From: a virus
Reading direction: 5' to 3' (one strand)
Length of the DNA: 64,000 nucleotides
Virus record (IMG/VR): IMGVR_UViG_3300036768_001490
Location: 62,001-126,000 of that record
The position numbers and the translations under genes are program-made. Positions 10,486 through 32,228 of this stretch are shown piece after piece. A model generated the notes under the pieces. It did not search any database. It saw only the letters and a list, made by a program, of their open reading frames with translations, and was not told where the DNA came from. Positions within the stretch are counted from its first letter, which is position 1; each line of letters opens with the position of its first letter.

Positions 10486-13400
10486 TTACCAGCCAAAGGT
10501 CTCGCGGAACTGGCGTCTCCAGTGCAGGGGATTGAGCGCCGGCAGCGTTCTGCCGCCCGTGCCTGGAATGACCGCATTGCCTGTCAAATAGTCATCCCAG
10601 CCGGCCGCGGGACGCGAAAGAACGTCAACGATAAATTCAGTAGCATTGACAGCTCGGCGGAGGCCCTTGGTGTCCTTGGTGCCCTTCGCGTTCTCTTCAG
10701 CTAGCGCGCCAGCTAGAGCGTCCCTGACCAAGGTGGCCTCTTCCAGCATCTTCCCTCCCGTGAGCGGGTTCAGCGCTTCCTTGCGCTCCTCGTGACTGAA
10801 CGGGTTGATCATCTTGTGCCCCATCGCCATGTAAGTGAGGGACTGGGTGGGCGAAAGTTTGGAACTTTCTATGACAAGCTGGGCAGGCGTCTTGGTCTTG
10901 GCAATTTCCACATCGCGGATGAATTTCTCTTCCTGTTGGCTCAAACTTTCTCCTCTGGCCTTCTTGGCCTTGAGCCTCTCTGCTTCGGGGATGTCCTTTT
11001 CATGCAGTTGCTTCATCACGATCTTCTCGGCCTCCGTGGCAATGCCTTCCGCCTGCGCTGACATCGTCGTGCCGGCCGTGTGGATGTCCGCGACCGTCTT
11101 GGTAATGTTCTTAATCAGGTTCATGCTGCCTTCTGGGTTGTTGCTGTCCCGCTCAACGCGCGTGATCCCCTTGAACAGCCGGTGGAGCGAGTCGGCGACG
11201 ACGTTGCCCAGGGGGCCGTAATCCTTCGCACGCTCGTCTTCACTCAGCTGCAGTGCCGGCGTGAACGCGAAGGGGTCCACCGCGTTTCCACTCGCCAGCT
11301 CGCCTCGCCGGAGCCTGTCAGCCTGGTGTTTCCGGATGAGATTGCCAACGGCCGCCTGCGCCTCGAAGTGCTTGCCGATGTTCGACTCGGACGTCAGCTT
11401 GCTCTTGGCGGCGCCGTCGTCTGCCTGATCTTCGGACAGTGCCCGGTACAGGTCTTTGAAAAGGTTGTAACCCTCCACGCCCAGCTGGGCCCCTCCTTCC
11501 AGCATGATACGGCCGGTGTTGACGTGGTTGGAGCGAATGCCAAGTGCCGTGAGCAAGTTCATGCCCGGCTGCTGCCGCCACTTGTACAAGTCGAACAGGT
11601 CGGCCGTTCCCTGGATGGCCTTCTGGTTCTCGCTGCGGAACTTTCCCTCGGACGAGAGCAGCCGGTCCCAGCCGCCCTCTTGCCAGTCCTCCAGAATGTT
11701 GCTTCCGGCTTCGCCCAGGCCAGCGATAATAGCCGCAGGATTGACGACATATTTGCCTAGCCAGCCGGCCACGTTGAGCATCTTCGTGCCGCCGGACGTC
11801 AGTCCTCCCGCCGCGTTGAGGAGCCGAGCCGTAGTTCTTTCGCCCAGCAGGCGTTTCGCCACGTTGCTGGACGCTAGCCAATTCAGGGCCGTGCCGGTGC
11901 CTTGCATTCCACTGCCGGAAATCGAGGACAGCGCCTGCACGCCGGAAAACGGCAAGGACGCCAGGCTGACATAATTGTGCCACTTGAGCTGATTGTCGTC
12001 TTTCTTGCCTGCTGCCTCTGCATTATTGCTATTGTTTACGGCGGCGTCGCTATTGTTTACGACAGCATCTTCATGGCCACGGCCCAGGTCGAAGGCCAAG
12101 TAGGCCGGCGGCACAGCATACTGGTGGGGCGAGTGGGACGATTGGGAATACGGGTGGGGCAAGTGGGGCGATTGGGAGAAATCGTAGCTGAAGGTCCGCG
12201 GGCCGGTGACGTAGTCACCGTAGTCAGGCTGCTGCTGGCTGTTCTCGCCGGGACGTCCCGTCCCAGGCAGGTATCCTGGCGGCACCGGTCTGCCCTGTCC
12301 CTGCTGGCCTGGTCCAAAGGGCTGGTACTGGTACTGGCCGCGCACGTAGGGGCTCCGGCTGGTCAGGACATGGATCGCGTTCGGGTCCAGCAGGGAGCCG
12401 AAGCGGATGGCAGAGCCGACCAGGCCGCCGAAGCCAGAGTTGGGATCGTTCGGGTTGCCGCCGCCGCGGACAAACATGGCGGCCTGACGCGGATCGTCGT
12501 GCTGCCACATCATGGGTCTGCCCCGCGTGTACTCCCCCTGGTGCGGCGCGTACTGGTAGGGCTGGTACATGGTGGCGGGAGTGCGCACGACGCCGCGGAA
12601 CGGGTCTGGATTCCGGACAGAGGTTGGGCGGGTGGCCCCGGCGGTATGGGAGTTCCCTGCTGGCTGTGCCGCCGGCTTCGCCCCGCCGGAAGGATTCGCT
12701 CCGCCAGAGGCCGCCACCGGCTTGCTGCTGTCCTTGTTGTCGTCGGCGGCGGACTTGCCGAAGAACTGCGCCTCCGCCTGCCGCAGCAGGGCGTCCGCTT
12801 CCTGCCGCTGCGCTTCCTGGTCCCAGGACGACTTGTACCAGCCGCGGAAGATGCGGGACAGCATGCTGCCGCCCTCGTCGCTGCCGGCAGCTGCCGGAGG
12901 AGGTAAGTCGAGCGCCAGGCCGTCCGTGGCTACTAGCCGCGGTGCCGTCTTTCGCCGCGCCCCTCCCCGGGCGCTTTCCTCCATGCCGTCGGGAACGGTC
13001 CCCGGCTCCGGCTGACGTACCGGTCCGACCAGGCCGAAGTCCGAGGCCCTGGCCAGACCCGGCACGAAGCTGGTGCCGGACTCGTCCCAGCCGCGCCCCC
13101 GGTGGACGGCCTCCAGCAGGCCACCCTTGATGCCGGAGCCGTACATGCGCGCCAGGACGTCCGGGTCGTGCTGGAGAGAGTACATGCCGCGGATCATCTC
13201 GCCCTGGAACGGCGGCGGCTCGTCATGGACGACTACCCGCCGGATGCCGAACTGCTGAAGTTCCCGGATGACGCTGGGACGGACCCGGGTGCCGATGGTG
13301 TAGTGCAGCACCGGCTTCTCCAGGTACTTGCCGACCGCGCGGCGCACGTCCAGCTCCTGGTGGCCGGCGCGGGGCTGGTAGTTGTATTCCAGCGTGGCGT

Positions 13401-15372
13401 AGGGCACCACGTCGTCCGGCAGGTTCCCGCCGAACTCGTCCGTCAGGCGGACGTGGTTGATAAGGCCGCGGGCCAGGATTTCCACGTTGCGGCGGTTGAC
13501 CTTCAGCCCGGCCGACCGCATGGCGTCCGTGTAAGCCTGGACAAAGTAGCGGCGCCCCTCGCCGATGCCCTTGTGCTGCACGATCAGGTGTGGCTGCGGG
13601 ATACCGTCACTGATGACGTCACCGGCCTCGACCGTGTCGCCAGGACGGACCCGCAGGTTGAAGCCGGCGCCGACGTAGTGCCGGGTGCCGTTGATCCAGA
13701 CAAACTTGCCTCCGGCCGGAGCGTCCTCGATGCGCTCCACCGTGCCATCCTCGGTCGCGTGCGCTGCTCCGCCGCGGAACACCTTGGGCACCTGGATCAG
13801 CTGGTTAATGTACTGGAAACCGCTCACGGCCTTCTCACGTCCGGCCACGCCACCGCTGTGCTTGGCCGAAAGCTGCGCCTGCGACAGCGGCTCCGACAGG
13901 GCCTGGGCGGCGGTGAGGCCAACCTGCTCGCCGCGGCCAGGCAGAACGCCGCGTTCACGCACACCAACGTCCCGTGCGTAAACACCACCATCAGGACTGC
14001 CGCCCACCACCGGACTTCGCACAAGAATGCGAGCATGGCCTCTCCGCCGGATGTCCTTGAGAATCTTTGGCGTCAGCACCGTGTTCTTCCGGTACGGCCC
14101 CACGTCCTGAGCCAGCAGGGCGCCCTCGTTGTCCGGGTCGTCCACGTCCACGGGAAGTCCGCGCGGCGTCGGGTCGTCCCGCGGGTCTTCCTCGTCCACT
14201 ACCACCAGGCGGTGCGAGACCTGGTTGAGCTGCTTGCTGTTGGACACGACCATGCCGTTGGCCAGCACGAACAGGTGGTCCGGGTGGTCCACTTCGATGT
14301 CATAGGTCGGCCGCCAGCCGACTTCTTCCCGCCGCACCAGGCGGCACAGCAGGACGTGCCTGTCCACCGGCCGCCGCGGCTCCTCTCCGTACCCGACCCC
14401 GGCCGGGACAAGGGCCGGCTGCCGCGGCCTCGCCGCCACCAGGCGGAGGCCGGCAGCTGCCACCTGACGCAGCGGCAGCAGGAGGTAGGGACGTCGTCCT
14501 CCCGGCGGCGCTGCCAGGACACGGTGGTCCTCTGTCGCCTCGATGGTGATGGCGGCCCTGCCGGCGCGGAAGACGTACCGCCAGACCCGGCGGAGACCGT
14601 GGACAAACAGGGCCCGGACCCGCGTGGGGAACGTCCGTCCCCGCCGGTCGGCACCGAGGACAAGGTCGCCGGGACGCAGCTGCTCGATGGGGACGGAAGT
14701 CCCTTCCGGCCGGCACACCTGCGTTCCTTCCGCCAGGCACAGGAAACCGGCGTCCTGCGTGGAAAACTTGGTCGCCATGACGCCCTTGCGCGCCCCGTAG
14801 GTGCCTGCCCAGTATTCGACTGGCCGGTAGCCCTCGCTGTAGGACGACAGGATCGGCAGAGGCAGCACGTCGTCGCGGTGGTCGGCGAAGAGCAGGCCGG
14901 TGCCGCGCAGCTCCGCCAGGTTCATGGCGTTGCCGCGCGAACCGGACAGCACCTGGAAGGCCAGTGGGTTTTCCTCCCGCAGCGATTCCTGGTAGACCTC
15001 GTCTGGAATCTTCTCGGCCGCGCGGCCCACGGTCAGGACCAGCAGGTCGTTCCGCTGCCGGTCGGTCAGCCGGTCGTCGTCAAGGATCTTCTTGACCTTG
15101 GACCACAGTTCCCGTTGCTTCCGACGGGCAATCTCGGACTTGGCCATGTGCCGCAGGCCGAAGGAGAAGCCGCCCGTCTCCGACGCGGCCTGGCGGCCGA
15201 TGTCCGCCAGGTGCTTGCTAACGTCGCGGTATCGCTCCGTATGCTTCCGCGCCAGCTGGCGCAGCAACTCCGCCATGCCCTTCTTGTCCAGGACACGCTG
15301 GTAGTCGCGCAGGTCTTCTGGCAACGTCTCGTTGACCAGGAGCTGCCCCATGCTGGTGCGTAGAACTGGCAT
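10486..15372 (-). CDS. rpoC (C-terminal part): RNA polymerase beta' C-terminal part with a mini-intein, fused to a virion-like extension
   Basis: The start at 15372 (MPVLRTSMGQLLVNETLPEDL) sits four bases after the previous stop. The first part matches beta' beyond the catalytic loop: LLVNETLPEDL, SGSRGNAMNL, PILSSYSEGY and EYWAGTYGARKG. A 167-residue intein follows, then GLTAAQALSEPLSQAQLSAKHSGG (in two pieces, the trigger-loop region) and the C-terminal clamp up to about residue 780. After that come about 850 residues unlike any polymerase: Gly/Pro/Gln/Tyr-rich linkers (YQPYQY, PGQQGQGRP), small hydrophobic segments and long helices ending WRRQFRETFGW. The extension resembles the other virion-like proteins here. 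No stop or frameshift separates the two halves, so this is one polypeptide; an in-virion role is inference. Confidence 0.85.
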   Translation of the reverse strand: MPVLRTSMGQLLVNETLPEDLRDYQRVLDKKGMAELLRQLARKHTERYRDVSKHLADIGRQAASETGGFSFGLRHMAKSEIARRKQRELWSKVKKILDDDRLTDRQRNDLLVLTVGRAAEKIPDEVYQESLREENPLAFQVLSGSRGNAMNLAELRGTGLLFADHRDDVLPLPILSSYSEGYRPVEYWAGTYGARKGVMATKFSTQDAGFLCLAEGTQVCRPEGTSVPIEQLRPGDLVLGADRRGRTFPTRVRALFVHGLRRVWRYVFRAGRAAITIEATEDHRVLAAPPGGRRPYLLLPLRQVAAAGLRLVAARPRQPALVPAGVGYGEEPRRPVDRHVLLCRLVRREEVGWRPTYDIEVDHPDHLFVLANGMVVSNSKQLNQVSHRLVVVDEEDPRDDPTPRGLPVDVDDPDNEGALLAQDVGPYRKNTVLTPKILKDIRRRGHARILVRSPVVGGSPDGGVYARDVGVRERGVLPGRGEQVGLTAAQALSEPLSQAQLSAKHSGGVAGREKAVSGFQYINQLIQVPKVFRGGAAHATEDGTVERIEDAPAGGKFVWINGTRHYVGAGFNLRVRPGDTVEAGDVISDGIPQPHLIVQHKGIGEGRRYFVQAYTDAMRSAGLKVNRRNVEILARGLINHVRLTDEFGGNLPDDVVPYATLEYNYQPRAGHQELDVRRAVGKYLEKPVLHYTIGTRVRPSVIRELQQFGIRRVVVHDEPPPFQGEMIRGMYSLQHDPDVLARMYGSGIKGGLLEAVHRGRGWDESGTSFVPGLARASDFGLVGPVRQPEPGTVPDGMEESARGGARRKTAPRLVATDGLALDLPPPAAAGSDEGGSMLSRIFRGWYKSSWDQEAQRQEADALLRQAEAQFFGKSAADDNKDSSKPVAASGGANPSGGAKPAAQPAGNSHTAGATRPTSVRNPDPFRGVVRTPATMYQPYQYAPHQGEYTRGRPMMWQHDDPRQAAMFVRGGGNPNDPNSGFGGLVGSAIRFGSLLDPNAIHVLTSRSPYVRGQYQYQPFGPGQQGQGRPVPPGYLPGTGRPGENSQQQPDYGDYVTGPRTFSYDFSQSPHLPHPYSQSSHSPHQYAVPPAYLAFDLGRGHEDAVVNNSDAAVNNSNNAEAAGKKDDNQLKWHNYVSLASLPFSGVQALSSISGSGMQGTGTALNWLASSNVAKRLLGERTTARLLNAAGGLTSGGTKMLNVAGWLGKYVVNPAAIIAGLGEAGSNILEDWQEGGWDRLLSSEGKFRSENQKAIQGTADLFDLYKWRQQPGMNLLTALGIRSNHVNTGRIMLEGGAQLGVEGYNLFKDLYRALSEDQADDGAAKSKLTSESNIGKHFEAQAAVGNLIRKHQADRLRRGELASGNAVDPFAFTPALQLSEDERAKDYGPLGNVVADSLHRLFKGITRVERDSNNPEGSMNLIKNITKTVADIHTAGTTMSAQAEGIATEAEKIVMKQLHEKDIPEAERLKAKKARGESLSQQEEKFIRDVEIAKTKTPAQLVIESSKLSPTQSLTYMAMGHKMINPFSHEERKEALNPLTGGKMLEEATLVRDALAGALAEENAKGTKDTKGLRRAVNATEFIVDVLSRPAAGWDDYLTGNAVIPGTGGRTLPALNPLHWRRQFRETFGW
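14239..14739 (-). mobile_element. Mini-intein in RNA polymerase beta'
   Basis: The element is 167 residues with no endonuclease domain. It begins with Cys1 (CLAEGTQVCRPEG) directly after the extein STQDAGFL, contains a block-B-like TEDHRVL, a block-F-like TYDIEVDHPDHLFVLANG and ends VVSN before Ser+1 (SKQLNQ). The penultimate residue is Ser rather than His. It interrupts the beta' region just after the EYW-GARKG motif, a highly conserved site. Confidence 0.85.
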
Positions 15373-15374
15373 GG

Positions 15375-15794
15375 TCACTTCACCCACACCCTCTGGCCGT
15401 CAGCCAGGCGCAGGCAGCGCGACCGAGGGGAGAACAACCAGATGGTGATGCGCGGCTGGTTTGCCATGCATACCTCGCGGCAACGCCATACATGGTGCTC
15501 GTCCTGGCTGCTGGACACCAGCAACAGGACCACAGGCAGGCGTCGGGAGCGGGCGCCGTAATAGAGGGACTTACCCACTGCCTCGGCCCAGTCGGGTGCC
15601 CAGGCCACGGCGACGGCATGGTGAGGGGTCAGAAGGTCGATGCGCGTGCCGTCGTAGTTGCTTGCCCCGGCCTGGGCCGGCAGGCCGCTGGAGGTCAGGC
15701 TGGCTGCCAGGCATCCAGCCCAGTCCTCCTCTTCGGGAACGTTGCCGCCGGTCAGCAGGCGGCGCAGCCACGACCGGAAGTGCTGGAGCATCAC
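15375..15794 (-). CDS. Degenerate PD-(D/E)XK nuclease-like protein
   Basis: The protein has 139 residues. The order YDGTRIDLLTPHHAVAVAW, then WAEAVGKSLYYGARSRRLP (both cited in part), then a hydrophobic VVLLLV strand, follows the core of small PD-(D/E)XK endonuclease-like domains, where one expects D, then E-x-K on the next strand and a Q/K-LYY helix. Here the Asp of RIDLL and the LYYGA helix remain, but the strand expected to carry E-x-K reads AVAVAWAP, so the key acidic residue and lysine look absent. It is probably a non-catalytic relative. It lies between two unknown genes within the polymerase block. Confidence 0.5.
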   Translation of the reverse strand: MMLQHFRSWLRRLLTGGNVPEEEDWAGCLAASLTSSGLPAQAGASNYDGTRIDLLTPHHAVAVAWAPDWAEAVGKSLYYGARSRRLPVVLLLVSSSQDEHHVWRCREVCMANQPRITIWLFSPRSRCLRLADGQRVWVK

Positions 15795-16678: not shown

Positions 16679-16960
16679 TCACTCGCGTGGACGGGGTCCA
16701 GCGATCAGCTGGGCTCCCGGGGGTGGGCCCGACAAACGGATGCGGTCCACCACGGTCGTCTGGGAGACGCCGAGGCGGCGCAGCAGGCGGTTAAAGTCCT
16801 CCATGCCCGCCATGCTGGCCGAGTAGGCGCCGTCCGGGCCGTAGTGAGCGGCGGCGAAGATCGGCGTGCCGTCGTCCGTCTCCAGGATGACCTGGCTGAC
16901 CGGAAGGACCAGTACCTGCCCGCGGCCAATGCCGTCGAGCGGGATGAGCTTGGCGATCAT
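16679..16960 (-). CDS. Small conserved-looking protein, 93 aa
   Basis: The 93-residue protein begins MIAKLIPLDGIGRGQVLVLP. The first half is beta-like and the second a helix with a sequence reminiscent of a small DNA- or RNA-binding turn (DFNRLLRRLGVSQTTVVDRI). Its ATG overlaps the TGA of the upstream gene by four bases (ATGA), a sign of translational coupling with the coiled-coil repeat protein. Function unknown. Confidence 0.45.
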   Translation of the reverse strand: MIAKLIPLDGIGRGQVLVLPVSQVILETDDGTPIFAAAHYGPDGAYSASMAGMEDFNRLLRRLGVSQTTVVDRIRLSGPPPGAQLIAGPRPRE

Positions 16961-17787
16961 GCAGCGCCGCCCTTTGCCGCCCGTGCCGCCTGGCGGAAAC
17001 GGGCAATGGCAGCCGCCCGGTCCTGCACGGCGCTGAAGCCACTTGTGTCAAAGGATGAGCCGTCAAAGGCGTGGCCGTTGCCGCGGTAGGCCCGGCGGTC
17101 ATGCGCCGGCTTCTCTGCCCCCGGCTTGCCCGCCGGCTGTATGCCCTCCAGGGGAGGAATGGGAGGGATCGCGCCCTCCTCGCCCCCTGCGCCGTCAGCA
17201 GACGGGTCGATGCCAGGCATGGGACCGCCCGTGGTCGAGGCGTGGGCCAGGTTCGTGAGGTCTTGCTGGGTGGCGACCATCTCCGAGGCAGGGATCTTGA
17301 TGCCGAGCTGGTCGGCGATGCGTGCCTGGATCTTCAGGATCGACAGCAGCACGGCGTTGGTGTCGATCTTGGGCTTGATGACGCCGCCCGTGTTGCCACC
17401 GTTGCCACCGTTGCCACCGTTGCCACCGTTGCCACCAGAACCGTTGCTCGACTGCATCTGCTGGATCTGCTGCTGGAGCTGACGTACCTGGTCCTGCAAG
17501 GCAGCCACGTCCGCGCTGTTGTCCGGCGACGGCGGTGGCGACGGCATGCCGCCCGCTGCCATCATGCTGGGGTCTGCCGGCATGCCGCCCGCTGCCATCA
17601 TGCTGGGGTCTGCCGGCATGCCGCCCGCTGCCATCATGCTAGGGTCTGCCGGCATGCCGCCCGCTGCCATCATGCTGGGGTCGCCGGCGGGCACGAAGGC
17701 ACGCTTGTGGAACCCGCCCAGGTTCCGCCGTGCCATCTTGAGGACTTCAAAATTGACCAGATGGTCGTCGCGCGTGGGGGCGCCCAT
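16957..17787 (-). CDS. Repeat-bearing coiled-coil virion-like protein
   Basis: The start at 17787 (MGAPTRDDHLVNFEVLKMA) is chosen because GGAG lies eight bases upstream; the longer frame overlaps the membrane-protein gene. The 276 residues run as: a short basic head, four copies of the 12-mer DPSMMAAGGMPA, a coiled-coil rich in Q (ALQDQVRQLQQQIQQMQ), a GGN repeat, then a helical segment with KIQARIADQLGIKIPASEM and a Gly/Pro-rich end. This is the layout of a linker or scaffold protein rather than an enzyme. It is coupled to the 93-residue gene downstream. Confidence 0.55.
   Translation of the reverse strand: MGAPTRDDHLVNFEVLKMARRNLGGFHKRAFVPAGDPSMMAAGGMPADPSMMAAGGMPADPSMMAAGGMPADPSMMAAGGMPSPPPSPDNSADVAALQDQVRQLQQQIQQMQSSNGSGGNGGNGGNGGNGGNTGGVIKPKIDTNAVLLSILKIQARIADQLGIKIPASEMVATQQDLTNLAHASTTGGPMPGIDPSADGAGGEEGAIPPIPPLEGIQPAGKPGAEKPAHDRRAYRGNGHAFDGSSFDTSGFSAVQDRAAAIARFRQAARAAKGGAA
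17549..17692 (-). repeat. Four tandem 36-bp repeats
   Basis: Four nearly identical 36-bp units encode the 12-residue repeat DPSMMAAGGMPA. One unit differs by a single base (CTAGGG for CTGGGG on the plus strand). The units are directly adjacent and stay in frame, so this is a coding minisatellite, not a CRISPR array. Confidence 0.85.
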
Positions 17788-17879
17788 GTGAAAGCTCCAT
17801 TTTTCGTGGTCACGTACCGTGTGGCCCAGTCTACCGTACCTTGCCGGGCGCACACCAGTCCGCTTCGTCCGCCGCCCCC

Positions 17880-18380
17880 CTACGACGCCCGCCGCGGCCG
17901 CCGGAGACGGCGCCACAGCCGGCGGAGCGGCCGGACGTAGTAGTGGCCGACGAAGCCGCGGACCAGGGGCCAGCCGAGAGCCCGGCGGACGTCGTTTTCC
18001 CAGGCCGTGATCGGGCACTCGGCCCGGCTGCACACGGACCAGATGATGGCGAAGCAGGCAGGAAAGGCCAGATACCACGGGGCGTAGAACGGGGCGACGC
18101 AGAAGGCGGCCGCGTTCGCGCCCACCAGGGCCGAGTGGAACAGCCAGATCGCGGCCCAGCGGAATATGAGCCACGTCCGCTGCCACTCCCGCTCCCGGAC
18201 GGCCCCCACCTCCTCCGCTGCCCGGCGCAGCATGGCCAGCGACTGCCGGAGCGAGTCGTTCGTGCTGGTCTGGCCCACGGCCTCGTCCAGGGCGGTAAAG
18301 AGACAGCGCAGGTCCGCGTCCGAAAGGTACTCCCGTGCCAGGGCCAGGATGTTGCTGGCCTCCTCGGTCGTTGTTGGCAT
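17880..18380 (-). CDS. Two-segment membrane protein with a CPIT-WEN motif
   Basis: The start at 18380 (MPTTTEEASNILALAREYL) has GGGAGG five bases upstream and lies just after the stop of the beta/beta' gene, so the two are probably co-translated. Of 166 residues, the first 80 form a soluble helical part; then come two or three hydrophobic segments (residues about 82-128), followed by CPITAWENDVRR and a very basic tail (RPLRRLWRRLRRPRR). The CPIT-x-WEN motif after a membrane helix recalls the DUF2784 family, but the protein is otherwise different and I rate that link as weak. Confidence 0.55.
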   Translation of the reverse strand: MPTTTEEASNILALAREYLSDADLRCLFTALDEAVGQTSTNDSLRQSLAMLRRAAEEVGAVREREWQRTWLIFRWAAIWLFHSALVGANAAAFCVAPFYAPWYLAFPACFAIIWSVCSRAECPITAWENDVRRALGWPLVRGFVGHYYVRPLRRLWRRLRRPRRAS

Positions 18381-18381
18381 G

Positions 18382-20136
18382 TCAACCTCCCAGGATCTCG
18401 ACAGGGGTGTCCACTGTGATTTCACCGCGCCGATAGGCCCGGATGGCATCCTGGCGGGAACGGAACACGCGCGGGCGCTTCCTTGACACGGAGCGCCGCC
18501 GGGTGGACTCGTACAGCCCGCCCAGGTACTCCTGCCCCGGCATGTGTACCGGCGACTGGAAGTCCGCCGGCGAGAACAGGGACCGGCTGGGCAGCAGCCG
18601 GTCGTATGCCTCCTTCACCGCCTCCGGCGACGTCGGCACGTGGAACTGCATGGCGTCGCCGTCGAAGTCGGCGTTGAACCCCTTGGTCACGAGGGGGCTC
18701 AGGTGGATGGTGTTTCCGCTTACCAGCCGGGGGCGAAAGGCCAGGATGCCGAACTTGTGCAGCACGGGGGCCCGGTTGACGTACACGGGGCGCTCTTCCA
18801 TTTCCTCTTGCATGATGGAGCGGGCCAGCGGCGTCCGCTCCCGGACGTGGCGCAGGGCCTCGCGGATCGGCAGGCCGCGCCGCCGGAGCCGGCGGACGAT
18901 GAACTTGCTGTAGACGTCGAACGCCTGGTTCTCCGGGATGCCGATGGAGTCCATGTCCATGTCCGGGTCCGGCGTGATGACGGCCCGGCCGACGTTGTCC
19001 ACGGTGGTGGAGAGCAGCTTGCGCTGCATCGTGCCGAACTTGGGGGATTCTCCGAAGATGCTCTTCAGGATCCCACTGACGCCCTTCTCCTGGAGCTTGG
19101 GGTGCATGGGCTCGCCGAGACCCACGACGGCCTGGAAGGCGTGGTAGACGGCCAGGCGCTCGGGGCCCGCGTTCTTCTTGCCCACCTGCTTGACCATGTC
19201 GTTGTAGTTGCGGATGGCGTCCAGCAGCTCCTTGTACAGGTAGTTGGGGTCCGATATAAGCGGGATGCCCGTGTCTCCCAGCATGGACACGGGCCGGAAG
19301 GCAGGCGGCAGCACGGGCACCCGATGCAGCACCCAGTCGCGCGGGTGCAGGCCGAGCTTCTTGGCGCTGTCCAGGTACTGCCAGCGACGGATCGCCTCGT
19401 CCCGGTGGGAAGCGCGGCCGTACCGCCACTCCGCCCGGGCCTTGTCCAGCTCCTTGTCCAGGTCCAGCTGGTCCAGCGCCTTGGCCACGGCCTGGGGTCC
19501 GCTGCCGTACCCCGGCAGAGACTCGTCTCCGGCCAGCACCGCCTCGAACTTCTTCTGCGTCAGGCCCAGGATGCGGCGGATCGGCTCCTCCATGACCGGG
19601 TTCGGCAGCGGCTCGGGCAACTCGATGGCGGCCCAGCGCCGGCCGCCGTGTCCACCCGTCAGTTTGGGGTCAAACAGGCCGCCGGGGATGGGACTCATGT
19701 TGTCGTCGAAGCGCACCAGCTCCCCGGAACGGATGATGCGGTTGCCTGCCAGCTCCTTGACGTCCTGGTCCGTCAGGGCCATGACGTTTGCCCGGTGCCC
19801 GTCCGGGACGACATTGATGCCTGCCGCCTTCAGCTGGTGGACGAACTTATCGTACACGTAGGGCACCTTGGGCTTCACCGGCGTGAAGCCCAACATGAAC
19901 TGGAGCCAGAACTGTTCGTTCTTCTGTCCCCGGATGAGGCGGGCGTCCCGGAGCGTCTCCGTGGCCCCGTGGGACATCAGGGCGTTGACGTCCAGCATGG
20001 ACAGCCTCTTCGAGTTGCTGACGAGCACGCCGCAGACCGCGTACAGGTGGACGTCAGCGACCGTGATGTCGTAGACATCGGCCAGGCTGTCCCTGCCGGC
20101 AGACGGACAGTATGGCCGGACCTCCCTGACGCGCAT
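18382..20136 (-). CDS. rpoB-rpoC (central part): IntC of a split intein, then RNA polymerase beta C-terminus fused to beta' N-terminus
   Basis: Residues 1-41 are the C-terminal half of an intein (SLADVYDITVADVHLYAVCG, then VLVSN). Ser42 opens the extein SKRLSMLDVNALMSHGATE, matching the beta C-terminus after GEM (compare cellular GEMEVWALEAYGA). From about residue 111 the sequence is beta': RIIRSGEL, PGGLFDPKLTGG, IELPEPLPNPVMEEPIRRIL, APVLHKFGILAFRP and the Mg-binding NADFDGD at 488-494, so catalysis is likely intact. It ends after VDTPVEILGG, near the point where cyanobacterial beta' is split. The missing remainder is at 10486-15372. Maturation needs trans-splicing with the upstream gene, 31 bp away. 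Confidence 0.92.
   Translation of the reverse strand: MRVREVRPYCPSAGRDSLADVYDITVADVHLYAVCGVLVSNSKRLSMLDVNALMSHGATETLRDARLIRGQKNEQFWLQFMLGFTPVKPKVPYVYDKFVHQLKAAGINVVPDGHRANVMALTDQDVKELAGNRIIRSGELVRFDDNMSPIPGGLFDPKLTGGHGGRRWAAIELPEPLPNPVMEEPIRRILGLTQKKFEAVLAGDESLPGYGSGPQAVAKALDQLDLDKELDKARAEWRYGRASHRDEAIRRWQYLDSAKKLGLHPRDWVLHRVPVLPPAFRPVSMLGDTGIPLISDPNYLYKELLDAIRNYNDMVKQVGKKNAGPERLAVYHAFQAVVGLGEPMHPKLQEKGVSGILKSIFGESPKFGTMQRKLLSTTVDNVGRAVITPDPDMDMDSIGIPENQAFDVYSKFIVRRLRRRGLPIREALRHVRERTPLARSIMQEEMEERPVYVNRAPVLHKFGILAFRPRLVSGNTIHLSPLVTKGFNADFDGDAMQFHVPTSPEAVKEAYDRLLPSRSLFSPADFQSPVHMPGQEYLGGLYESTRRRSVSRKRPRVFRSRQDAIRAYRRGEITVDTPVEILGG
20014..20136 (-). mobile_element. Split intein, C-terminal half (IntC)
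   Basis: Forty-one residues at the start of the beta/beta' gene include a block-F-like DVYDITVADVHLYAVCG and end VLVSN before Ser+1. The length and the Ser-Asn ending resemble naturally split DnaE-type inteins, whose IntC is about 35-40 residues. The partner IntN is the last 98 residues of the preceding gene. Confidence 0.88.
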
Positions 20137-20167
20137 GCTACGCCCTCCCTGGAGACCGCGCCGGACC

Positions 20168-23100
20168 CTAGCACTCCATCAGGTCGTCTCCCGCCGCCAG
20201 CTGGCACGCCAGCTTCCTGCTGCCATCTTGCAGCACGAACTCATGGTTGCGGGTGCATACCAGCGTGGCTCCGTCCGCCAGCTCGACCTCCACCAGCGTG
20301 GACGCGGGCACCCGGTAGTGGAACCAGTCCGTGACGGCGTACCAGCCTGCCTCCTGGCCCTCCAGGCCCCGCGCGCGGACGCGCAGAGGCAGACGTCCCT
20401 CCACCACCTGCCGGATCGTCCGCGGCCCCTGGTCCGTGTGCAACACGGTGTCGCCCAGGAAGCAGCCCATTTCCCCTCCCTTGGACGGGCTCTCGTCCAG
20501 GGAGTACGCGCCCCCGCCGCGGCCCTGGCCCTTGGAATTGCCGGACAGCATCGGCTTGCCGTTGCGACGGACATACAGCAGACCTGTCTCCATTTCCGCG
20601 CAGTAGACGATGCCGTTGTAGTCCTTGGTCCAGAAACGGCCCTCGCCCGGACCGGCCCAGGCATCGGTGCGCTCCGGCACCACGCGGCAGACCCAGGAGG
20701 GCAGGAAGTGGGAACTGGGCCCGGGCGGCCGCCGCTGCACGATGGCGCCAAGTCCCGCCCGGATGAACAGCTCCTGGAAATCGTCCGCCAGGCCCCGGGA
20801 CAGGGACACGTAGCCCAGGCGCCGCCCCGCCTCGTCCCTGCCGCAGCTAGCCAGCCAGGCGGCACAGGTCCGGCGCAGCACGTCCGGCGGCTGCTCCAGC
20901 AAGTGGCGTGGCAGGCGCTTGGAGCGGGCATGCCCGCCGTACCGCCGCAGGTGTTGCGCAAGAGGACGGTGCGCCAGGACGTAACCCTTACCGGGGACGT
21001 ACTCCCACGGCAGGGCCAGACGTTGCAGCAGCTCCTCCAGCGCCGCAGCCCGCGCCGGCCCGTCGCCCGGCTTTTGCCCACGGACGAAGAAGGTGACGTC
21101 CGCGCGCCGCGGCGTCACCCGGGCATGGCCCGCGCCGGCCCACCAGCCGACCAGCTCGGCGTAGTCCCCGCAGTCCATCTCCTGGCCGCACACGAGCAGT
21201 CTGGCAGCGCAGACCTGGCCATTCTCCACTGGCCAGCCAAACTGGGGCACGCGGAAGCGGCGGCCATGCACCTCCTGCGCCGGCAGCAGGGCGCACACCG
21301 GGTCGGGACACTGGCCCAGGTCCGCGTACAGGCGGTGGTTTCCCGTGACCAGGTAGTCGAGGTCGCGGCTCGTGAAGCCGTACAGGGTGCCACGGAAGGA
21401 AGCCCGGATGAGGCGCAGCGGCCGCTCGAACACCAGCCGGCCGCCACGCACCGTGGCCAGCTCGTCGTCGCAGCGCACCTGGGGCCAGGGCACCCAGCCA
21501 CGGGCAGTCAGGGCCTCCGTGGCGGCATCGAAGCACTCCGCCGTGTGGTGCAGCTTCATGAAGAAGCGGTTGCCGGTAGCGATCCCGCGGACCTTCATGT
21601 CCCTTTCCGGCCAGAAGATGTCCTCGGTGTCCTTCAGGCCGTGCCGCTCCAGCTGCCGCCGCACCCAGGCGGTCATGTCCTCCTCGCCCTCGAAATCAGT
21701 CACCTTGATGGGGCGTCCCAGCTTCCGGGCCAGCTTGCCCAGCATGGCCTCCGCGATCTGGGCCGGGTTGACACGGGTGATGACGCCGAGCGGGTTCAGC
21801 AGGACTTCCAAAGGCTCGCCGTCCTCGCCCCGCGGCATCAGGCTGTCTGGCACAATGGCGGCGACCACGCCCTTGTCCCCGTAGCGCCCGGACATCTTGT
21901 CGCCGACCTGCATTGGCTCGACGGACTTGACCACGACGACCGGCCCGCTCTTGCTCCAGACCACGTCGGTGACGACGCCCGGCTGGTGGTGCTTCCACAG
22001 CACGCTCTCGTCGTTGTACCCAGGCTGCTTCTTCCGGTGGACCTTGTTCTGTGCATGCTCCCGCTGCCGCGCCGCCAAGATGAGCGGGTCGCCGTACTGG
22101 ACGACCGTGCCCGGCTTGACCGTGCCGTCGTCGTTGATGGTGTCCAGCACCTTCCGCTCGAACTTCTGGGGAAAGAGGCCGATGAAATCGCGCTTGCCCA
22201 GCTTGTGTCGGTCGCTCACCTCCAGACTGTGCTGGTACATGTGCTCGGACGACATCTTCTTGGCCATGCCCTCGGAGATCACGACGGCGTCCTCGTAGTT
22301 GTACCCCAGGTAGGGCCAGTAGGCCACGCGGGCATTGACCCCCAGGGCCATCGCGCCGTTGTTGTCCGTGTAGTTGCTCCGGGCCAAAAGCTGGCCGCGT
22401 CGGAAGTTGTCGCCTGGTCGGACCAGGGGGATCTGGTGGATGAACGTCTTGCGGTTGAATGGATAGTTGTCGTACAGCTCGATCTCTTCCTTCCGGCCAT
22501 CCGCGTACTGGACCTTGATTACTCCGTCACGGACGTCGATGACCCGTCCGTCCGCACCAGCCTCCACTGCGCCAAGGTGCTTGCCGTACTCTTCCTCAAA
22601 AGATCTCTTCCCCTTGGACTCTGGTGTGCCGGATTGTACAAGCGGAGCCTCGGCGGCGATGAGAGGAAGGGCCTGCGTAATGTAGCGGCTGCCCATCGCC
22701 ACGCGCTGTCCCTTGACCATGCTTTTAAGCGGCACCAGGTTGCCCAGAGGGCTGAACGTGTCCTCGAAATGAGGGATGACAAAGTCGATGTCTTTCTTGC
22801 GCACATAGGACAGTTTGCCTCCCTTCATCACAGGCACGCGCTTGCTGTCCCAGCGGAGGACGTCCGGCGTGGCCACGGCCGCGTCGGCCAGGTCGCGCGG
22901 CCCCTTCCAGACCAGCTTTCCCCTCCGGTCGAGCAGCTGCACGTACAAGCTGCCGTCACTCCCCTTGCGCGCACCCCGGGCCACATGCAGGTCCACGCCT
23001 GCCCGGAAGCTGTTACCAGACCAGTGACCCGGAGTGCCGTCCCGGCGGACGTAGAGAAGTCCGCCCGGCACCGTGGCGCAGTAGACGGGGCCGTCGTAGT

Positions 23101-25330
23101 CCAGCCGGTAGTAGGACGCTGGCGATGCGCCCCATTCCTCGTCGCCAGCATAGAGGCGGACGCGGTGCCGGCGCCGCTGCCCGTCCGGCTCAGGACGCAG
23201 CACGCTGGGGATGCCCAGCGTGAAGGCCAGCAGGACCATCTGCTTGGCCAGGGCCAGGCTGCTAGACTGGAACTGGACGAACCGGCCGTGCCGGTCCTTC
23301 CTTCCACCGGCCAGCAGCAGGACCGCGTACAGGCGGCGGCGGGACTCCAGGCTGCCGGCCAGCAGACAATCCGGCAGCCTGCGGCCGTGTGGACCGTCCA
23401 GCTCCCGGCAGAGACCGGCCAGGCGCCTGTCCTCCAACACGAAGACCTGGCCGGCCGCGTCATACTCCCAGACAAGTCCCAGGCGCGTCAGCAGGGCGGT
23501 GAGCCGCGCGTGCTGGGAACGGTACGCTTGCGGACGGCAAGACAGGCGCAGCCTGTCCGGGTTGATGACGTCTTCCTCCTGGTCAGCCGTCCCGGCCGCG
23601 GCCGTGTACCAGCAGACCAGCTCCGCCCAATCCTCCGCCGACCCGGGCCGACCCGAGGTCCACTCCTCCCAGGCACCGTATAGATCATCGCCGCGGTAGC
23701 AGGGACCGCCGCCGAGATGGAGGCGGGGCCGGCCAAAGGCTGCCGCGGCCGTCTCTTCCTGGTAAGTCCCGTCCGCCTGGCCGCGCGGCCGCACCCACAG
23801 GCGATGGTCCGGCGTGACCAGATAGCTCAGCAGCCGCGTCCGCACACCCAGCAGCTTGCCACGGTAATGGCCACAGTGCAGCTGCGTGGGCCGGTGCCAC
23901 TCCACGGTGCCACCGACCAGGCAGGCCAGCTCGTCCTTCTGGGCCACTTCCGGCCACGCCTTCCAGCCGGAGCGAGTCATCACCTCGGTCCGGGCGTCGT
24001 AGCACTCCGGCGTGCGCAGCGGGTCGATGAAGCCCAGGTGCGACGGCTGCACGGAGCGGGCCTCGTCCGGAATGGAGTCGATGTTCGGGATGCCGCCCTC
24101 TCCCATGCGCGTGATCCGCGTCTGCTTGTCAAACACTTCCGCCGGGTTGATCTCCTCCAGCGCCTCTGCCAGGCCGCTGCCCAGCAAGACCTCCTCGATC
24201 TGAGGCGTCAGGGCACCGCTCGGCATCTTGTCCAGCGAGCCGGCCAGGGAGACCTTGCGGAACAGCTGCGCCAGGGTCCGGCCGTGGTCGCGGGCGATGC
24301 GCTCGGCGAACATGTCCTCGGGACCGAGGAAGACCTGGTAAGCCAGGTGGTCGCGGTCGTCCGGGTCGGTTTCCCGGCGGCTGACCTGGAGCAGCTTCTG
24401 CGTGGCCTTGAGGATGACCTCCTTGCTGAGCCGGTCATACGGCTGCCCCAGGGTGTGGCGGGTGACTTCCGGGTCCAGCTCCATCGCCTGGAACTTGGCG
24501 ACCAGCTTTTGCCGTTCGCTGCCCTCGTCCCCGTCCCGCTCGTTCTTCCGCAGCAGGCGGTCGGCCAGTTTTCGCATGGTCCCCCGGTCGGGATACTGGG
24601 CATTGGCGGCGTACAGATCGTTGCCCCAGTAGGCCCGCACCTCCCGGTCGGTGGCCCCCATAGCTTGCAGCAGCGGCAGTAGCGGCATCTCCGCCTGGCC
24701 CAGGCGGATCTTGAACAATCCCTTTTCTGGGTCCAGGAAGTAACGGTGCGAGACGCCCTTCCCTGGCAGCACGTTGACGTGGCTTTCCAGCTCCCCGTTG
24801 TCCTTGATGCGGGTGAAGATGCCCGGCCGCAGCCGTTGCTGGTGGCTGACCGTGTACTCGTTGCCCCGGTGGATGAACGTCCCCAGGCTGGACAGATAGG
24901 GCACGCGCGCGATGACCTGGGTGCGACGTTGTAGCTCCTTGCCAGTGGCCGAGTCCTCCAGCACCCAGGTGCCCTGCAAGCGCCGGGCCAGCGTGCCGCC
25001 CGTGAGAACGGCCTGCTTGCGCTGACGGCGAGAGAAGCGCTCCGGGTCGGCCCACTTCACGTCGGTCAGGCGCAGACGGTGCTTGCCGTCATCCAGCGGA
25101 GCAATGGACTGGGCGGCATGGAGCACGTTGTCGTAGAGGGAACGGCGCGTGGCATCGGTGTCGCCAAAGGCGCGCAATGCCGGCAGAGGTGACGGCGGAG
25201 CCGCGCCGGCGCCGGCGAGCACGGCGTCGGCCCTCGTTGGTGGCAGTAGCGACGACACGGCTTGCCCCTTCCTTGCCAAGTCACCTTCCCGTCCGCCGCT
25301 ACCGTGTCCGGCCGGACGGAGCGCGGCCAT
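20168..25330 (-). CDS. rpoB (N-terminal part): RNA polymerase beta with two inteins and a C-terminal IntN
   Basis: The precursor has 1720 residues. Exteins are 1-442, 774-1265 and 1599-1622. Beta signatures include FIHRGNEYTVSHQQRLRPG (residues 152-170), HLGFIDPLRTPE, GYNYEDAVVISEG, the catalytic-site lysine motif MQVGDKMSGRYGDKGV, LLNPLGVITRVN and MKLHH, then YSLDESPSKGGEMG. Two large inteins interrupt at RTPE and HHTAE; the chain then stops inside a third, at residue 1720, leaving an N-terminal half. After two cis events and one trans event the beta part would continue into the next gene's product. The start at 25330 has GGGGG upstream and overlaps the previous gene by 32 bp. No alpha, omega or sigma subunit is seen in the window. 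Confidence 0.93.
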   Translation of the reverse strand: MAALRPAGHGSGGREGDLARKGQAVSSLLPPTRADAVLAGAGAAPPSPLPALRAFGDTDATRRSLYDNVLHAAQSIAPLDDGKHRLRLTDVKWADPERFSRRQRKQAVLTGGTLARRLQGTWVLEDSATGKELQRRTQVIARVPYLSSLGTFIHRGNEYTVSHQQRLRPGIFTRIKDNGELESHVNVLPGKGVSHRYFLDPEKGLFKIRLGQAEMPLLPLLQAMGATDREVRAYWGNDLYAANAQYPDRGTMRKLADRLLRKNERDGDEGSERQKLVAKFQAMELDPEVTRHTLGQPYDRLSKEVILKATQKLLQVSRRETDPDDRDHLAYQVFLGPEDMFAERIARDHGRTLAQLFRKVSLAGSLDKMPSGALTPQIEEVLLGSGLAEALEEINPAEVFDKQTRITRMGEGGIPNIDSIPDEARSVQPSHLGFIDPLRTPECYDARTEVMTRSGWKAWPEVAQKDELACLVGGTVEWHRPTQLHCGHYRGKLLGVRTRLLSYLVTPDHRLWVRPRGQADGTYQEETAAAAFGRPRLHLGGGPCYRGDDLYGAWEEWTSGRPGSAEDWAELVCWYTAAAGTADQEEDVINPDRLRLSCRPQAYRSQHARLTALLTRLGLVWEYDAAGQVFVLEDRRLAGLCRELDGPHGRRLPDCLLAGSLESRRRLYAVLLLAGGRKDRHGRFVQFQSSSLALAKQMVLLAFTLGIPSVLRPEPDGQRRRHRVRLYAGDEEWGASPASYYRLDYDGPVYCATVPGGLLYVRRDGTPGHWSGNSFRAGVDLHVARGARKGSDGSLYVQLLDRRGKLVWKGPRDLADAAVATPDVLRWDSKRVPVMKGGKLSYVRKKDIDFVIPHFEDTFSPLGNLVPLKSMVKGQRVAMGSRYITQALPLIAAEAPLVQSGTPESKGKRSFEEEYGKHLGAVEAGADGRVIDVRDGVIKVQYADGRKEEIELYDNYPFNRKTFIHQIPLVRPGDNFRRGQLLARSNYTDNNGAMALGVNARVAYWPYLGYNYEDAVVISEGMAKKMSSEHMYQHSLEVSDRHKLGKRDFIGLFPQKFERKVLDTINDDGTVKPGTVVQYGDPLILAARQREHAQNKVHRKKQPGYNDESVLWKHHQPGVVTDVVWSKSGPVVVVKSVEPMQVGDKMSGRYGDKGVVAAIVPDSLMPRGEDGEPLEVLLNPLGVITRVNPAQIAEAMLGKLARKLGRPIKVTDFEGEEDMTAWVRRQLERHGLKDTEDIFWPERDMKVRGIATGNRFFMKLHHTAECFDAATEALTARGWVPWPQVRCDDELATVRGGRLVFERPLRLIRASFRGTLYGFTSRDLDYLVTGNHRLYADLGQCPDPVCALLPAQEVHGRRFRVPQFGWPVENGQVCAARLLVCGQEMDCGDYAELVGWWAGAGHARVTPRRADVTFFVRGQKPGDGPARAAALEELLQRLALPWEYVPGKGYVLAHRPLAQHLRRYGGHARSKRLPRHLLEQPPDVLRRTCAAWLASCGRDEAGRRLGYVSLSRGLADDFQELFIRAGLGAIVQRRPPGPSSHFLPSWVCRVVPERTDAWAGPGEGRFWTKDYNGIVYCAEMETGLLYVRRNGKPMLSGNSKGQGRGGGAYSLDESPSKGGEMGCFLGDTVLHTDQGPRTIRQVVEGRLPLRVRARGLEGQEAGWYAVTDWFHYRVPASTLVEVELADGATLVCTRNHEFVLQDGSRKLACQLAAGDDLMEC
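20171..20464 (-). mobile_element. Split intein, N-terminal half (IntN)
   Basis: The last 98 residues of the beta gene begin with Cys1 (CFLGDTVLHTDQGPRTI) after GGEMG, contain the block-B-like CTRNHEFVL and then stop after LAAGDDLMEC. No endonuclease sequence follows; the complementary 41-residue IntC starts the next gene 31 bp downstream. Confidence 0.88.
20537..21535 (-). mobile_element. Intein 2 in RNA polymerase beta
   Basis: The intein spans 333 residues (1266-1598). Cys1 (CFDAATEALTARGW) follows KLHHTAE; TGNHRLYA is the block-B-like motif; the end is LLYVRRNGKPMLSGN before Ser+1. The central domain again looks like a decayed LAGLIDADG enzyme (LVGWWAGAGH and CAAWLASCGRD). Similarity of start, end and layout to intein 1 suggests that the two share an origin. 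Confidence 0.88.
23012..24004 (-). mobile_element. Intein 1 in RNA polymerase beta
   Basis: The intein spans 331 residues (443-773). Cys1 (CYDARTEVMTRSGW) follows RTPE; a block-B-like TPDHRLWV is at positions 64-71; the end is GLLYVRRDGTPGHWSGN before Ser+1. The middle resembles a LAGLIDADG endonuclease, but the two expected acidic repeats read LVCWYTAAAG and LYAVLLLAGG, without the catalytic aspartates, so homing activity is probably lost. Confidence 0.88.
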
Positions 25331-29414: not shown

Positions 29415-32228
29415 CTACAGCTCGCAGCGGTCGCCGGTACAGGCCCAGGAGCGCACGGGGCTGGCACTGTCCTCCTGCTCGTAATGCACCAGCTTGGCCC
29501 AGTTAAGCGTGGGAAAGCTGGCCACGAACTCGTCGTACTGCGCGCGGGTGAGTTCCTCGTTGGGGGCGTAGGTGTAGCGGCCGTTGTCCTTGGGCAGGAA
29601 GCTCAGGCCGGTGATATGGTCCCAGTGTTCCTGCCGGTAGACCCAGGCGCCGACCTCCAGCCACTCGTCGGCGTCGATGTAGATGGTGGCGGACACGGAA
29701 TGCTCCGCGTAGTTCTTCTTCCAGCTCAGCCAGTTCTCCAGCTGCTGCACCGCCGTCAGGTCGTCCCGCGTGATGGCCCCCGCCGGCGCCGCCTTGGGGA
29801 AGCCGAAGACCAGCAGCTCGCCCGGTGCCTCCGGGGCCGGCGCGTGCGGCACGCCACTGTCGATCAGGAAGCGGGCGATGGCGCTGTCCTTGCGCTCGCG
29901 CACCCAGCGGACCTGGTAGGGGGCGAAGCGCGGGCTGATGCCGGCTGCGCAGTCAAAAAAGATGCTGGAATCGCCGCCTGGCTTGATGCACGTGTCCGCG
30001 GCAGACAGGGCGATGCCGAAGCGGGGCGCGTACTGGGCCTTGGTGTCATGCACCACCTGCCGGAGGGCGCGCTGCAACTCGGCCAGACCCGCCGCGCCGT
30101 GATGCAGCAACGGGCAGTCGGCGTGGCCGGTGATGTCCACGCCTAGCAGCCGCTCCTCCTCGCAATTCTTCTTCCAGTCCGGCCGGATGTACTGGAACTG
30201 GGTGCAGGTGGACTGCATCAGTCCGAACAAGGTGGCCAGGCGGACCTTCCGCTTCAGGGAGTCCACCGTGTCGTCCGGCCGGGCGACCGCGATGCTCAGG
30301 TTGCAGAACTCATATGGCCGCAGGATGACCTCGGCGCACGGGTTCACGCCGAAGCGGGCCTTCCTGCGCCGCGCCGGCCGGTGGTTGACCGCCGCCTGCC
30401 GGTTGTAAATGCCGCGCTCGCCCGAGCGGGAATTGAGCAGGGCCAGCCACTCCCGCAAGAAGACGTCGATGGGGGGCCGTTCCTCGTAGACGGCCGAGTT
30501 GTTGGCCATCGTCAGGTACTTGCCGTCCGTCCAGTACGTCCGGTCGTTGTACCAGTCCCCCGACTTGATGTCGCGCATGCCGGCCGAGGCCAGATCGGAA
30601 AGGGACAGCGTTGCGGCCCGGCGCACGCCGCCGACCTGGACGATGCGCCCCGTGAAGCAGGCCAGACGGTGGGCGTCCGTGTCATCCAGGTAGCGACCCT
30701 GGCGGGCCAGGATGACGTTACGGCTGAACTCCATCAGCTCCAGAAACGGGCCAGGCCCCGAGGCCAGACCGCCCTTGGTACGAAGACGGCTGCCGGCCGG
30801 ACGCACGCCGCTGACGTCGAAGCGCACGTCATGGCCGTCAAACCAACGCTGGAGGGCCTCGAAGTAGGCCGTGCACCAGCCCTCCGTGCTGTCGGTCACA
30901 GCAAGGACGTCCGCCTTCTTGCCCCGCTGCTTCTTGACGCGCGGCAGCTCGCCGACGTAGTCCGACTCCACGCTGAAGCCGACCCCCGTGCCCTGCATGA
31001 GAATGTAAAGCATCTCAGGGAACGAGAAGATGTCCGCCATCGGCTGGTAGGCGCAGTTGCCAGTAACGATGCAGCCGTCCAGGACAAAGGACTGCTCGCC
31101 TGGCACCTCCAGGCACCAGACGTCCGTGTCCTCGCCGTGGCTGCCCACTTCCAGGACGAGAGGAGGCAAGGAGGCCGCGTCCGTGCCACCGGCGTCCGCG
31201 GCAAGGGACACGGCCTCGGCCGGAGCCGGGCACAGCTTGTCTCCGGCCACGATCCACGGCAGGACGTTGCCGTCCTGGCCAAGCCAGCGGTGGTCGCGCG
31301 TGGCATGCACGACATGCCGCTCTAGCCCCCGCGCCAGCACGATGGGATAGGTCACGTCCCTGCCGTAGCAGCGCACCGTGGCCGTGCGCCAGTTCCCCAT
31401 GTGGGTCAGGACGTCCACCGTGTCACCGTCAGCAAAGTCGAGAAAGGAACGCACGCCGTCCCGCGTCCAGAAGCGCGTGTCACGCCGCAGGCAGTTGTAC
31501 ACGCCGACGTGGCAGCGGTCGAGAGCCGGCCCCGCCATCTGCACCACGCGCAGGGCGGGGGACACCTCCAGGCGGTACATGGCGTCCGCCAGCTCGTCCC
31601 ACTCGGCCGCCGATAGTTTGCCGGCCACCAGCGGCAGGCGCTGGAACCAGGGGATGACCCGCTCGTACACTGCCTCCCGCCACGTCTCGCGCCGGCCGTC
31701 CTGGTCGCGCCAGCGGGAGAACTTGCCCATGAACTGGTAGTATTGCAGGTCGGTCGGAAAGTGCTTCCGGTCCTCCAGGAAGCGCGCGGCAACCTCGGGC
31801 GGGATGGGGCGCAGCTCCCGCGCCCGGCGCCGCTCCTCCCGGTAGTTCTGGTACTGCTCCGCCGCCTCGAACAGGCCGGCGCCCCACAGCTGCTGGATGA
31901 CCAGGCGCTGGACCTCCTCCACCCCCGGACGGGTGATGCCCTGGGCCGCCAGGTTGTTGCAGACGGCACGGGTGATCTGTTCGATCAGCGCCTGCTCCTC
32001 GCCAGCTCCCGGCACAAGGGAAGAAGGGCCACCGGCGTCCGCGCGGATGCTGTGGAAACACCGGGACAGGGCCCGGCGGATCTTGTCCGGGTCGAAGGGG
32101 ACGGCCTGGCCGTCCCGCTTCACGCACGTCCAGCCCGCGGACATTTCCTCGGGAGTGAGTGCTTTGCCGTTGCGAAGACCGGGATGGATGGCCGCTGCGC
32201 GCGCGGCCGACGAAGTGCCATGTTGCAT
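29415..32228 (-). CDS. nrdJ: Adenosylcobalamin-dependent ribonucleotide reductase (class II) with an intein
   Basis: The precursor has 937 residues. An ATP-cone-like domain starts near residue 33 (CVKRDGQAVPFDPDKIRRAL). After removal of a 146-residue intein, Cys392 joins HVGVYN, the position of the reducible active-site Cys. NPCAE at 629-633 gives the thiyl-radical Cys631 and Glu633, and Cys642 follows eleven residues after Cys631, the spacing known for Lactobacillus RTPR (C408, E410, C419). The C-terminal CTGDRCEL supplies the shuttle pair Cys930/Cys935. The enzyme makes deoxynucleotides for phage replication and needs B12 from the host. The start has GGGAGG. It is flanked upstream by a TATAAT box. 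Confidence 0.92.
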   Translation of the reverse strand: MQHGTSSAARAAAIHPGLRNGKALTPEEMSAGWTCVKRDGQAVPFDPDKIRRALSRCFHSIRADAGGPSSLVPGAGEEQALIEQITRAVCNNLAAQGITRPGVEEVQRLVIQQLWGAGLFEAAEQYQNYREERRRARELRPIPPEVAARFLEDRKHFPTDLQYYQFMGKFSRWRDQDGRRETWREAVYERVIPWFQRLPLVAGKLSAAEWDELADAMYRLEVSPALRVVQMAGPALDRCHVGVYNCLRRDTRFWTRDGVRSFLDFADGDTVDVLTHMGNWRTATVRCYGRDVTYPIVLARGLERHVVHATRDHRWLGQDGNVLPWIVAGDKLCPAPAEAVSLAADAGGTDAASLPPLVLEVGSHGEDTDVWCLEVPGEQSFVLDGCIVTGNCAYQPMADIFSFPEMLYILMQGTGVGFSVESDYVGELPRVKKQRGKKADVLAVTDSTEGWCTAYFEALQRWFDGHDVRFDVSGVRPAGSRLRTKGGLASGPGPFLELMEFSRNVILARQGRYLDDTDAHRLACFTGRIVQVGGVRRAATLSLSDLASAGMRDIKSGDWYNDRTYWTDGKYLTMANNSAVYEERPPIDVFLREWLALLNSRSGERGIYNRQAAVNHRPARRRKARFGVNPCAEVILRPYEFCNLSIAVARPDDTVDSLKRKVRLATLFGLMQSTCTQFQYIRPDWKKNCEEERLLGVDITGHADCPLLHHGAAGLAELQRALRQVVHDTKAQYAPRFGIALSAADTCIKPGGDSSIFFDCAAGISPRFAPYQVRWVRERKDSAIARFLIDSGVPHAPAPEAPGELLVFGFPKAAPAGAITRDDLTAVQQLENWLSWKKNYAEHSVSATIYIDADEWLEVGAWVYRQEHWDHITGLSFLPKDNGRYTYAPNEELTRAQYDEFVASFPTLNWAKLVHYEQEDSASPVRSWACTGDRCEL
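31056..31493 (-). mobile_element. Mini-intein in ribonucleotide reductase
   Basis: The element is 146 residues (246-391). Cys1 (CLRRDTRFWTRDGVR) follows HVGVYN; ATRDHRWLG is the block-B-like motif; the end is VWCLEVPGEQSFVLDG, then CIVTGN before Cys+1. There is no endonuclease domain. The insertion point is directly at an active-site cysteine, so unspliced protein should be inactive. Confidence 0.85.

Follow-up and report, generated by a model that had tools for sequence, protein, structure and literature searches.

A probable natural split intein in the multisubunit RNA polymerase of a phage

The window analysed here, 64,000 nucleotides of DNA from a large phage (bases 62001-126000 of the 182,719-bp IMG/VR virus record IMGVR_UViG_3300036768_001490), encodes a multisubunit RNA polymerase (RNAP) whose β gene breaks off inside an intein that the next gene resumes. 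We interpret the two parts, an N-terminal half (IntN) and a C-terminal half (IntC), with high confidence as a natural class 1 split intein whose trans-splicing would rebuild one chain of β and the N-terminal half of β′ (β-β′N). The same arrangement occurs in two diverged relatives, and contiguous inteins occupy the identical position in others.

The β gene (25330-20168, on the minus strand, as are all RNAP features below; 1,720 residues; rpoB models NF001616/TIGR02013 and PF00562) comprises an N-extein running from the gene start to GGEMG (20465-25330), which itself contains two contiguous inteins, and a 98-residue IntN (20171-20464). Its reading frame passes through ...SPSKGGEMG, continues for 98 codons as CFLGDTVLHT...CTRNHEFVLQDGSRKLACQLAAGDDLMEC and ends at a TAG (20170-20168); IntN thereby begins with Cys1, carries block B as T71-R-N-H74 within CTRNHEFVLQ and finishes in GDDLMEC. 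Across a 31-bp spacer (20137-20167), where a GGAGG can be read at 20148-20144, seven bases 5′ of the ATG, lies a second gene (20136-18382; 584 residues; rpoC N-half models). It opens with the 41-residue IntC (20014-20136), MRVREV...DVYDITVADVHLYAVCGVLVSN, in which D23 and H30 belong to block F and block G ends in VSN41. The C-extein (18382-20013) then runs on as SKRLSMLDVNALMSHGATETLRD, with Ser+1 in SKRLSMLDV, and consists of the β C-terminus fused to β′N, including the catalytic motif NADFDGDA (PF00623 and rpoC models). The first-pass annotation had given these residue counts, the spacing and the splice-junction residues correctly to the base; it is to be corrected in that the β gene carries two further complete inteins.

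Profile searches identify both halves as intein parts. IntN matches TIGR01445 (intein_Nterm) with E 1.1e-5 and 26.4 bits against a cut-off of 24.5, and IntC matches TIGR01443 (intein_Cterm) with 17.1 bits against 15.6. In the two split relatives, L003 and L004, the IntC matches also exceed the cut-off (22.5 and 19.8 bits), and the IntN matches fall just under the curated one (23.0 and 21.9 bits). A profile built from the three IntN sequences places the Npu and Ssp DnaE inteins and the Mtu RecA intein at the top among PDB chains (E about 5e-5 to 8e-5), and the top of that list holds known inteins only; the IntC profile likewise matches intein C-termini, weakly.

The residues expected of a class 1 intein, as listed in PMC4031507, are present, apart from the common but not obligatory penultimate His. 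Position 1 is Cys in the window, L003 and L004 (Cys or Ser being expected), the TxxH of block B is invariant as T71-R-N-H74, the Asp and His of block F are invariant as D23 and H30 of IntC, and the C-terminal Asn followed by Cys, Ser or Thr is represented by invariant N41 and Ser+1. The splice-junction residues Cys1, Asn and Ser+1 are intact in all three split phages. This conservation accompanies considerable divergence: IntN is 98, 99 and 99 residues long and only 52% (L003) and 40% (L004) identical to that of the window, and IntC measures 41 residues in each. Third-position codon changes outnumber those at first and second positions in every pair, for IntN and IntC alike, a weak sign of coding constraint.

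The break between the halves is a property of the family and not of one assembly. A search with the second gene returned 80 viral relatives, three of which carry an intein half. One, the second IMG/VR record L002, matches the window at 100% identity throughout its 21,752 bp, frames included, and is probably the same virus. The other two, L003 and L004, are different phages, with IntC gene products 71% and 63% identical to that of the window. In these, a complete gene stands between the IntN stop and IntC (L003:8091-10004, 637 residues; L004:9600-10004, 134 residues). Its ATG overlaps the IntN stop or closely follows it, and its own stop is overlapped by the GTG or ATG of the IntC gene, as is typical of translationally coupled genes. 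The IntC genes of L003 and L004 have their own start codon and Shine-Dalgarno-like site; as in natural split inteins, the halves belong to two separate genes with their own stop, start and ribosome-binding site. Since whole genes separate the halves in L003 and L004, sequencing error cannot explain the split, and the recurrence of the same site, halves and splicing residues in two diverged phages is more than chance.

The idea that an assembly or sequencing frameshift has cut a single gene that encodes an unbroken mini-intein some 150 residues long is for these reasons scarcely credible. A one-base shift near the TAG would indeed join the two frames in the window, but the intervening genes refute this for the family, the identical second record argues against it, and the Shine-Dalgarno-like site and ATG are correctly placed. 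A programmed +1 frameshift, in which TAGG read as four bases would enter the IntC frame and yield a contiguous precursor for cis-splicing, has an equally negligible chance: it is impossible across the 637- and 134-residue genes, and a separate ribosome-binding site precedes the IntC gene.

Similarity between the intervening genes of L003 and L004 is confined to the initial ~21 and the final ~75 residues; the two may represent one gene in a long and a shortened version. That they hide a homing endonuclease was considered and rejected, neither having a Pfam or PHROG match. No homologue of the L003 gene was found in the virus record of the window or in the records of L004, L005, L006 and L009. 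Scans with the intein profiles revealed no further split copies; these required near-exact motifs, and more may exist.

Joining the exteins restores an uninterrupted polymerase sequence, as had been proposed. In the other loci among the 80 relatives the site is empty and β and β′N form one open reading frame (ORF), usually of about 1,460-1,500 residues. Aligned to the continuous ORF of L005, the joined exteins show no gap at the junction and 66% identity over 565 residues, with GGEMG-SKRLSMLDV in the window facing GGESG-SKRISMLDV in L005 (GGESGSKRISMLDV). Compared with bacterial β chains, the junction falls within the conserved stretch GGQRFGEMEVWALEAYGA near the β C-terminus. The β′ C-half is a gene of its own both in relatives and in the window (10486-15387; rpoC C-half models, with the RNAP part in its N-terminal portion). 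Trans-splicing would therefore give a β-β′N chain plus β′C and not a whole β-β′ protein: the earlier suggestion of a fused chain holds for β and β′N, which form one ORF in the large majority of relatives, and fails for β′, which would not be rebuilt whole.

The site itself preserves a series of intein states. A wider polymerase scan found 455 relatives, of which 80 were taken; among the roughly 100 distinct relatives checked overall, about 94 have an empty site, three are split (window/L002, L003, L004), three bear a contiguous intein at the same site and two a shifted one, a count that discounts L147 as a duplicate of the L002 contig and in which some empty sites may appear twice. Every same-site intein bearer has Ser as its first extein residue 3′ of the site; among the empty sites, 50 have Ala there and 39 have Ser. 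The contiguous inteins at exactly this junction belong to L093 (379 residues), found by the IntC profile scan, and to L126 (393 residues) and L137 (292 residues), found by the wider polymerase scan, and related inteins lie about five residues downstream in L106-L108 and L177. All of these except L137, in which no endonuclease was detectable, match LAGLIDADG_2 (E 8e-15 to 4e-20).

The L093 intein shows where the break occurred. Its residues 1-108 align with IntN of the window (E 4e-12), its residues from about 341 to 379 with the IntC halves, and the endonuclease Pfam match (120-288) lies in between, so that the break lies at the endonuclease insertion region, as in other natural split inteins. 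An AlphaFold model of this allele (predicted local distance difference test, pLDDT, 89.5; predicted template modelling score, pTM, 0.84) is a predicted intein and LAGLIDADG nuclease fold; it was built on an alignment of 10 rows that included the split halves, and an earlier fold of this allele from a thin alignment had a pLDDT of 56 before the allelic inteins were added. Its structural matches are LAGLIDADG inteins and nucleases and, for the splicing part, the NrdJ-1, Npu DnaE and Mtu RecA inteins.

A LAGLIDADG homing intein at this position was very probably the ancestor of the split form, a direction suggested by the contiguous alleles that bear an endonuclease. One clade of the polymerase tree (100/100) unites the window plus L003 (100/99) with L004 and with L005 and L006, which lack the intein. 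The split inteins group together in the intein tree (90/100), which would fit a single origin followed by either loss or exchange. No homing endonuclease gene of the kind found in fractured genes lies between the halves, where the window has 31 bp and L003 and L004 have genes that match neither Pfam nor PHROG. A search with the L093 β′N alone returned only L093 itself. A scan of genome contigs gave four RNAP relatives, and the one junction inspected, that of L094, is empty; L094 (JAFQXE010000002.1) carries the same RNAP type; its 183-kb contig was assigned to a Thermoguttaceae (Planctomycetota) metagenome-assembled genome, which may hint at the host or reflect misbinning.

On the mechanism we favour, the endonuclease segment would have been lost and the frame broken there, leaving the 31-bp spacer in the window or an unrelated captured gene in L003 and L004. 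Two precursors would then be made from adjacent genes, β with IntN at its end, and a chain in which IntC precedes the β C-terminus and β′N. IntN and IntC would come together and adopt a single Hint fold; Cys1 would attack the N-junction, the N-extein would be transferred to Ser+1, and Asn41 of IntC would cyclise, forming a native peptide bond at GGEMG-SKRLS. The junction peptide of the ligated product would read ...SPSKGGEMGSKRLSMLDV, and the product would be a continuous β-β′N chain, as relatives make from one ORF, with the two cis inteins excised too.

Trans-splicing could further be an obligatory, timed step of RNAP assembly, with no complete β-β′N chain before translation of both genes and the meeting of IntN with IntC, and the fracture could in addition have become a stable site at which phages of this group insert other genes into the RNAP operon without loss of the polymerase. 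We regard this extension as unlikely. A related proposal, in which the split intein actually times or gates polymerase assembly and is not just a neutral remnant that must splice, also appears unlikely. The presence of several inteins in one enzyme, the persistence of the split in three phages and gap genes without an endonuclease signature speak for such a device; on the other hand, the sister phages L005 and L006 lack the intein within the same clade, which indicates that it is not required in this group.

The main live rival to a splicing intein holds that the halves are inactive relics and that the polymerase works as separate, unspliced chains. The trans-splicing reaction, its efficiency and the need for it are what we infer from sequence for the split phages, and some features speak against our reading. 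The oppositely charged halves typical of DnaE inteins are not found in the three split phages (net charges of the halves: -4/-1, +1/-4 and -2/0). The residue before the terminal Asn is Ser and not the usual His, in the three split phages and in the same-site contiguous alleles, an ending that the Npu DnaE intein shares. His is a common assisting residue at this position but not an obligatory one, and Ser occurs in class 2 inteins (PMC4031507). In favour of the rival, multi-chain phage RNAPs do exist, and those of jumbo phages can work with their chains unjoined (PMC7598289). Even so, the retention of all splicing residues over deep divergence argues against a relic. An unspliced β would, moreover, carry 98 foreign residues at its end, at a conserved core motif, and β-β′N stays fused in relatives. 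We therefore judge the relic explanation quite improbable and retain a functional split intein as the best reading.

Beyond the split intein, the window contains four more inteins. Two contiguous inteins in β appear as gaps in the extein alignment: one of 331 residues at TPE|C...N|SFRAG (23012-24004), whose LAGLIDADG_3 match is weak and below cut-off, and one of 333 residues at HTAE|C...N|SKGQG (20537-21535). A contiguous mini-intein lies in the β′C gene (14739-14239, TIGR01443), and the fourth is a mini-intein in a B12-dependent ribonucleotide reductase (31056-31493, minus strand). Related phages have about ten intein sites in their RNAP in all. In L093 a second apparent intein directly behind ADFDGD interrupts the catalytic Asp motif region of β′N, and the locus ends inside it. 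At the β site GDK|C...N|SGRYG, three different phages (L009 at ~9588, L065 at ~8578 and L081 at ~9585; L006 and L007 are identical to L065) have a contiguous intein followed immediately by a stop (TGA or TAA) and then by a 4-7-nt insertion before (G)DKGVV. The frame is continuous in L067, which has an intein at the same GDK site. These stops could reflect recoding, a second way of gene breakage or error.

No second copy of the RNAP region is present in the virus record, and no sigma-70 promoters or terminators were found between 17.8 and 26.5 kb, a search that is uninformative in such GC-rich DNA. Nearby, the gene at 16957-18186 contains a tandem repeat (17542-17688) encoding repeated (M)PADPSMMAAGG. 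Farther away, the minus-strand product of 54660-56345 is TROVE/Ro60-like and contains a vWA domain (PF25045, E 6e-13; PF05731, E 9e-8); it also matches the RNA-binding family phrog_850 (E 4e-25).

Literature text searches, in which subscription papers were not searchable, found no natural split intein in any RNA polymerase, in agreement with the first-pass annotation, which knew of none in a phage RNAP. Natural split inteins in phage enzymes are already known; what is new is the RNAP as host protein together with an informative allelic series. If the reading is true, a multisubunit RNA polymerase would, as far as we found, host a natural split intein for the first time, and would be an enzyme needing ligation after translation. 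One insertion site presents as empty, contiguous with an endonuclease, contiguous without a detectable one, split by a 31-bp gap and split by a captured gene, which makes the origin of split inteins from homing inteins directly testable with these sequences. The series also suggests a concrete route by which phage RNAP genes may break into several reading frames, and protein ligation work could draw on its three diverged split pairs with Ser+1.

Among the closest parallels are the fractured-gene split inteins of phage-like metagenomic DNA (gp41-1, gp41-8, NrdJ-1, IMPDH-1 and TerL), reportedly described by Dassa et al. in 2009. These share Ser+1 with the window. As in the window, such inteins, cited in PMC6892783 and PMC6801210, are split between blocks B and F, in phage-type essential enzymes and with the halves in neighbouring genes, and NrdJ-1 is among the nearest folds of the L093 splicing domain; here, however, the host is a multisubunit RNA polymerase and the gap holds 31 bp or an unrelated gene instead of an endonuclease gene. 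Similarly, the jumbo phage MIJ3 has a putative split intein in PolB (PMC6892783), again a jumbo-phage polymerase gene broken inside an intein, but one in a DNA polymerase B, with an HNH endonuclease gene in the gap and known from a single phage. Cyanobacterial DnaE inteins (Npu, Ssp) resemble the window in IntN sequence and in the lengths of IntN (about 100 residues) and IntC (about 36-41), and differ in their DnaE host, distant gene loci, Cys+1 and the charge complementarity that the window lacks.

As for the polymerase, mReC phages have a deep-branching multisubunit RNAP (PMC7481178), and with these and the split RNAPs of jumbo phages (PMC7598289) the window shares β and β′ close enough to cellular ones for standard models, as its rpoB and rpoC matches attest, and a β′ divided after the catalytic barrel. 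Neither of those two papers mentions an intein, and in the window β is fused to β′N. Eukaryotes are known to have inteins in RNA polymerase genes (PMC1635734), and a split T7 RNAP has been engineered (PMC4231753). The contiguous inteins of L093 and L126 (both LAGLIDADG) and L137 share the identical insertion point and homologous splicing halves with the window; they differ in that a single ORF encodes both splicing halves together with an insert separating them, and in their predicted splicing in cis.

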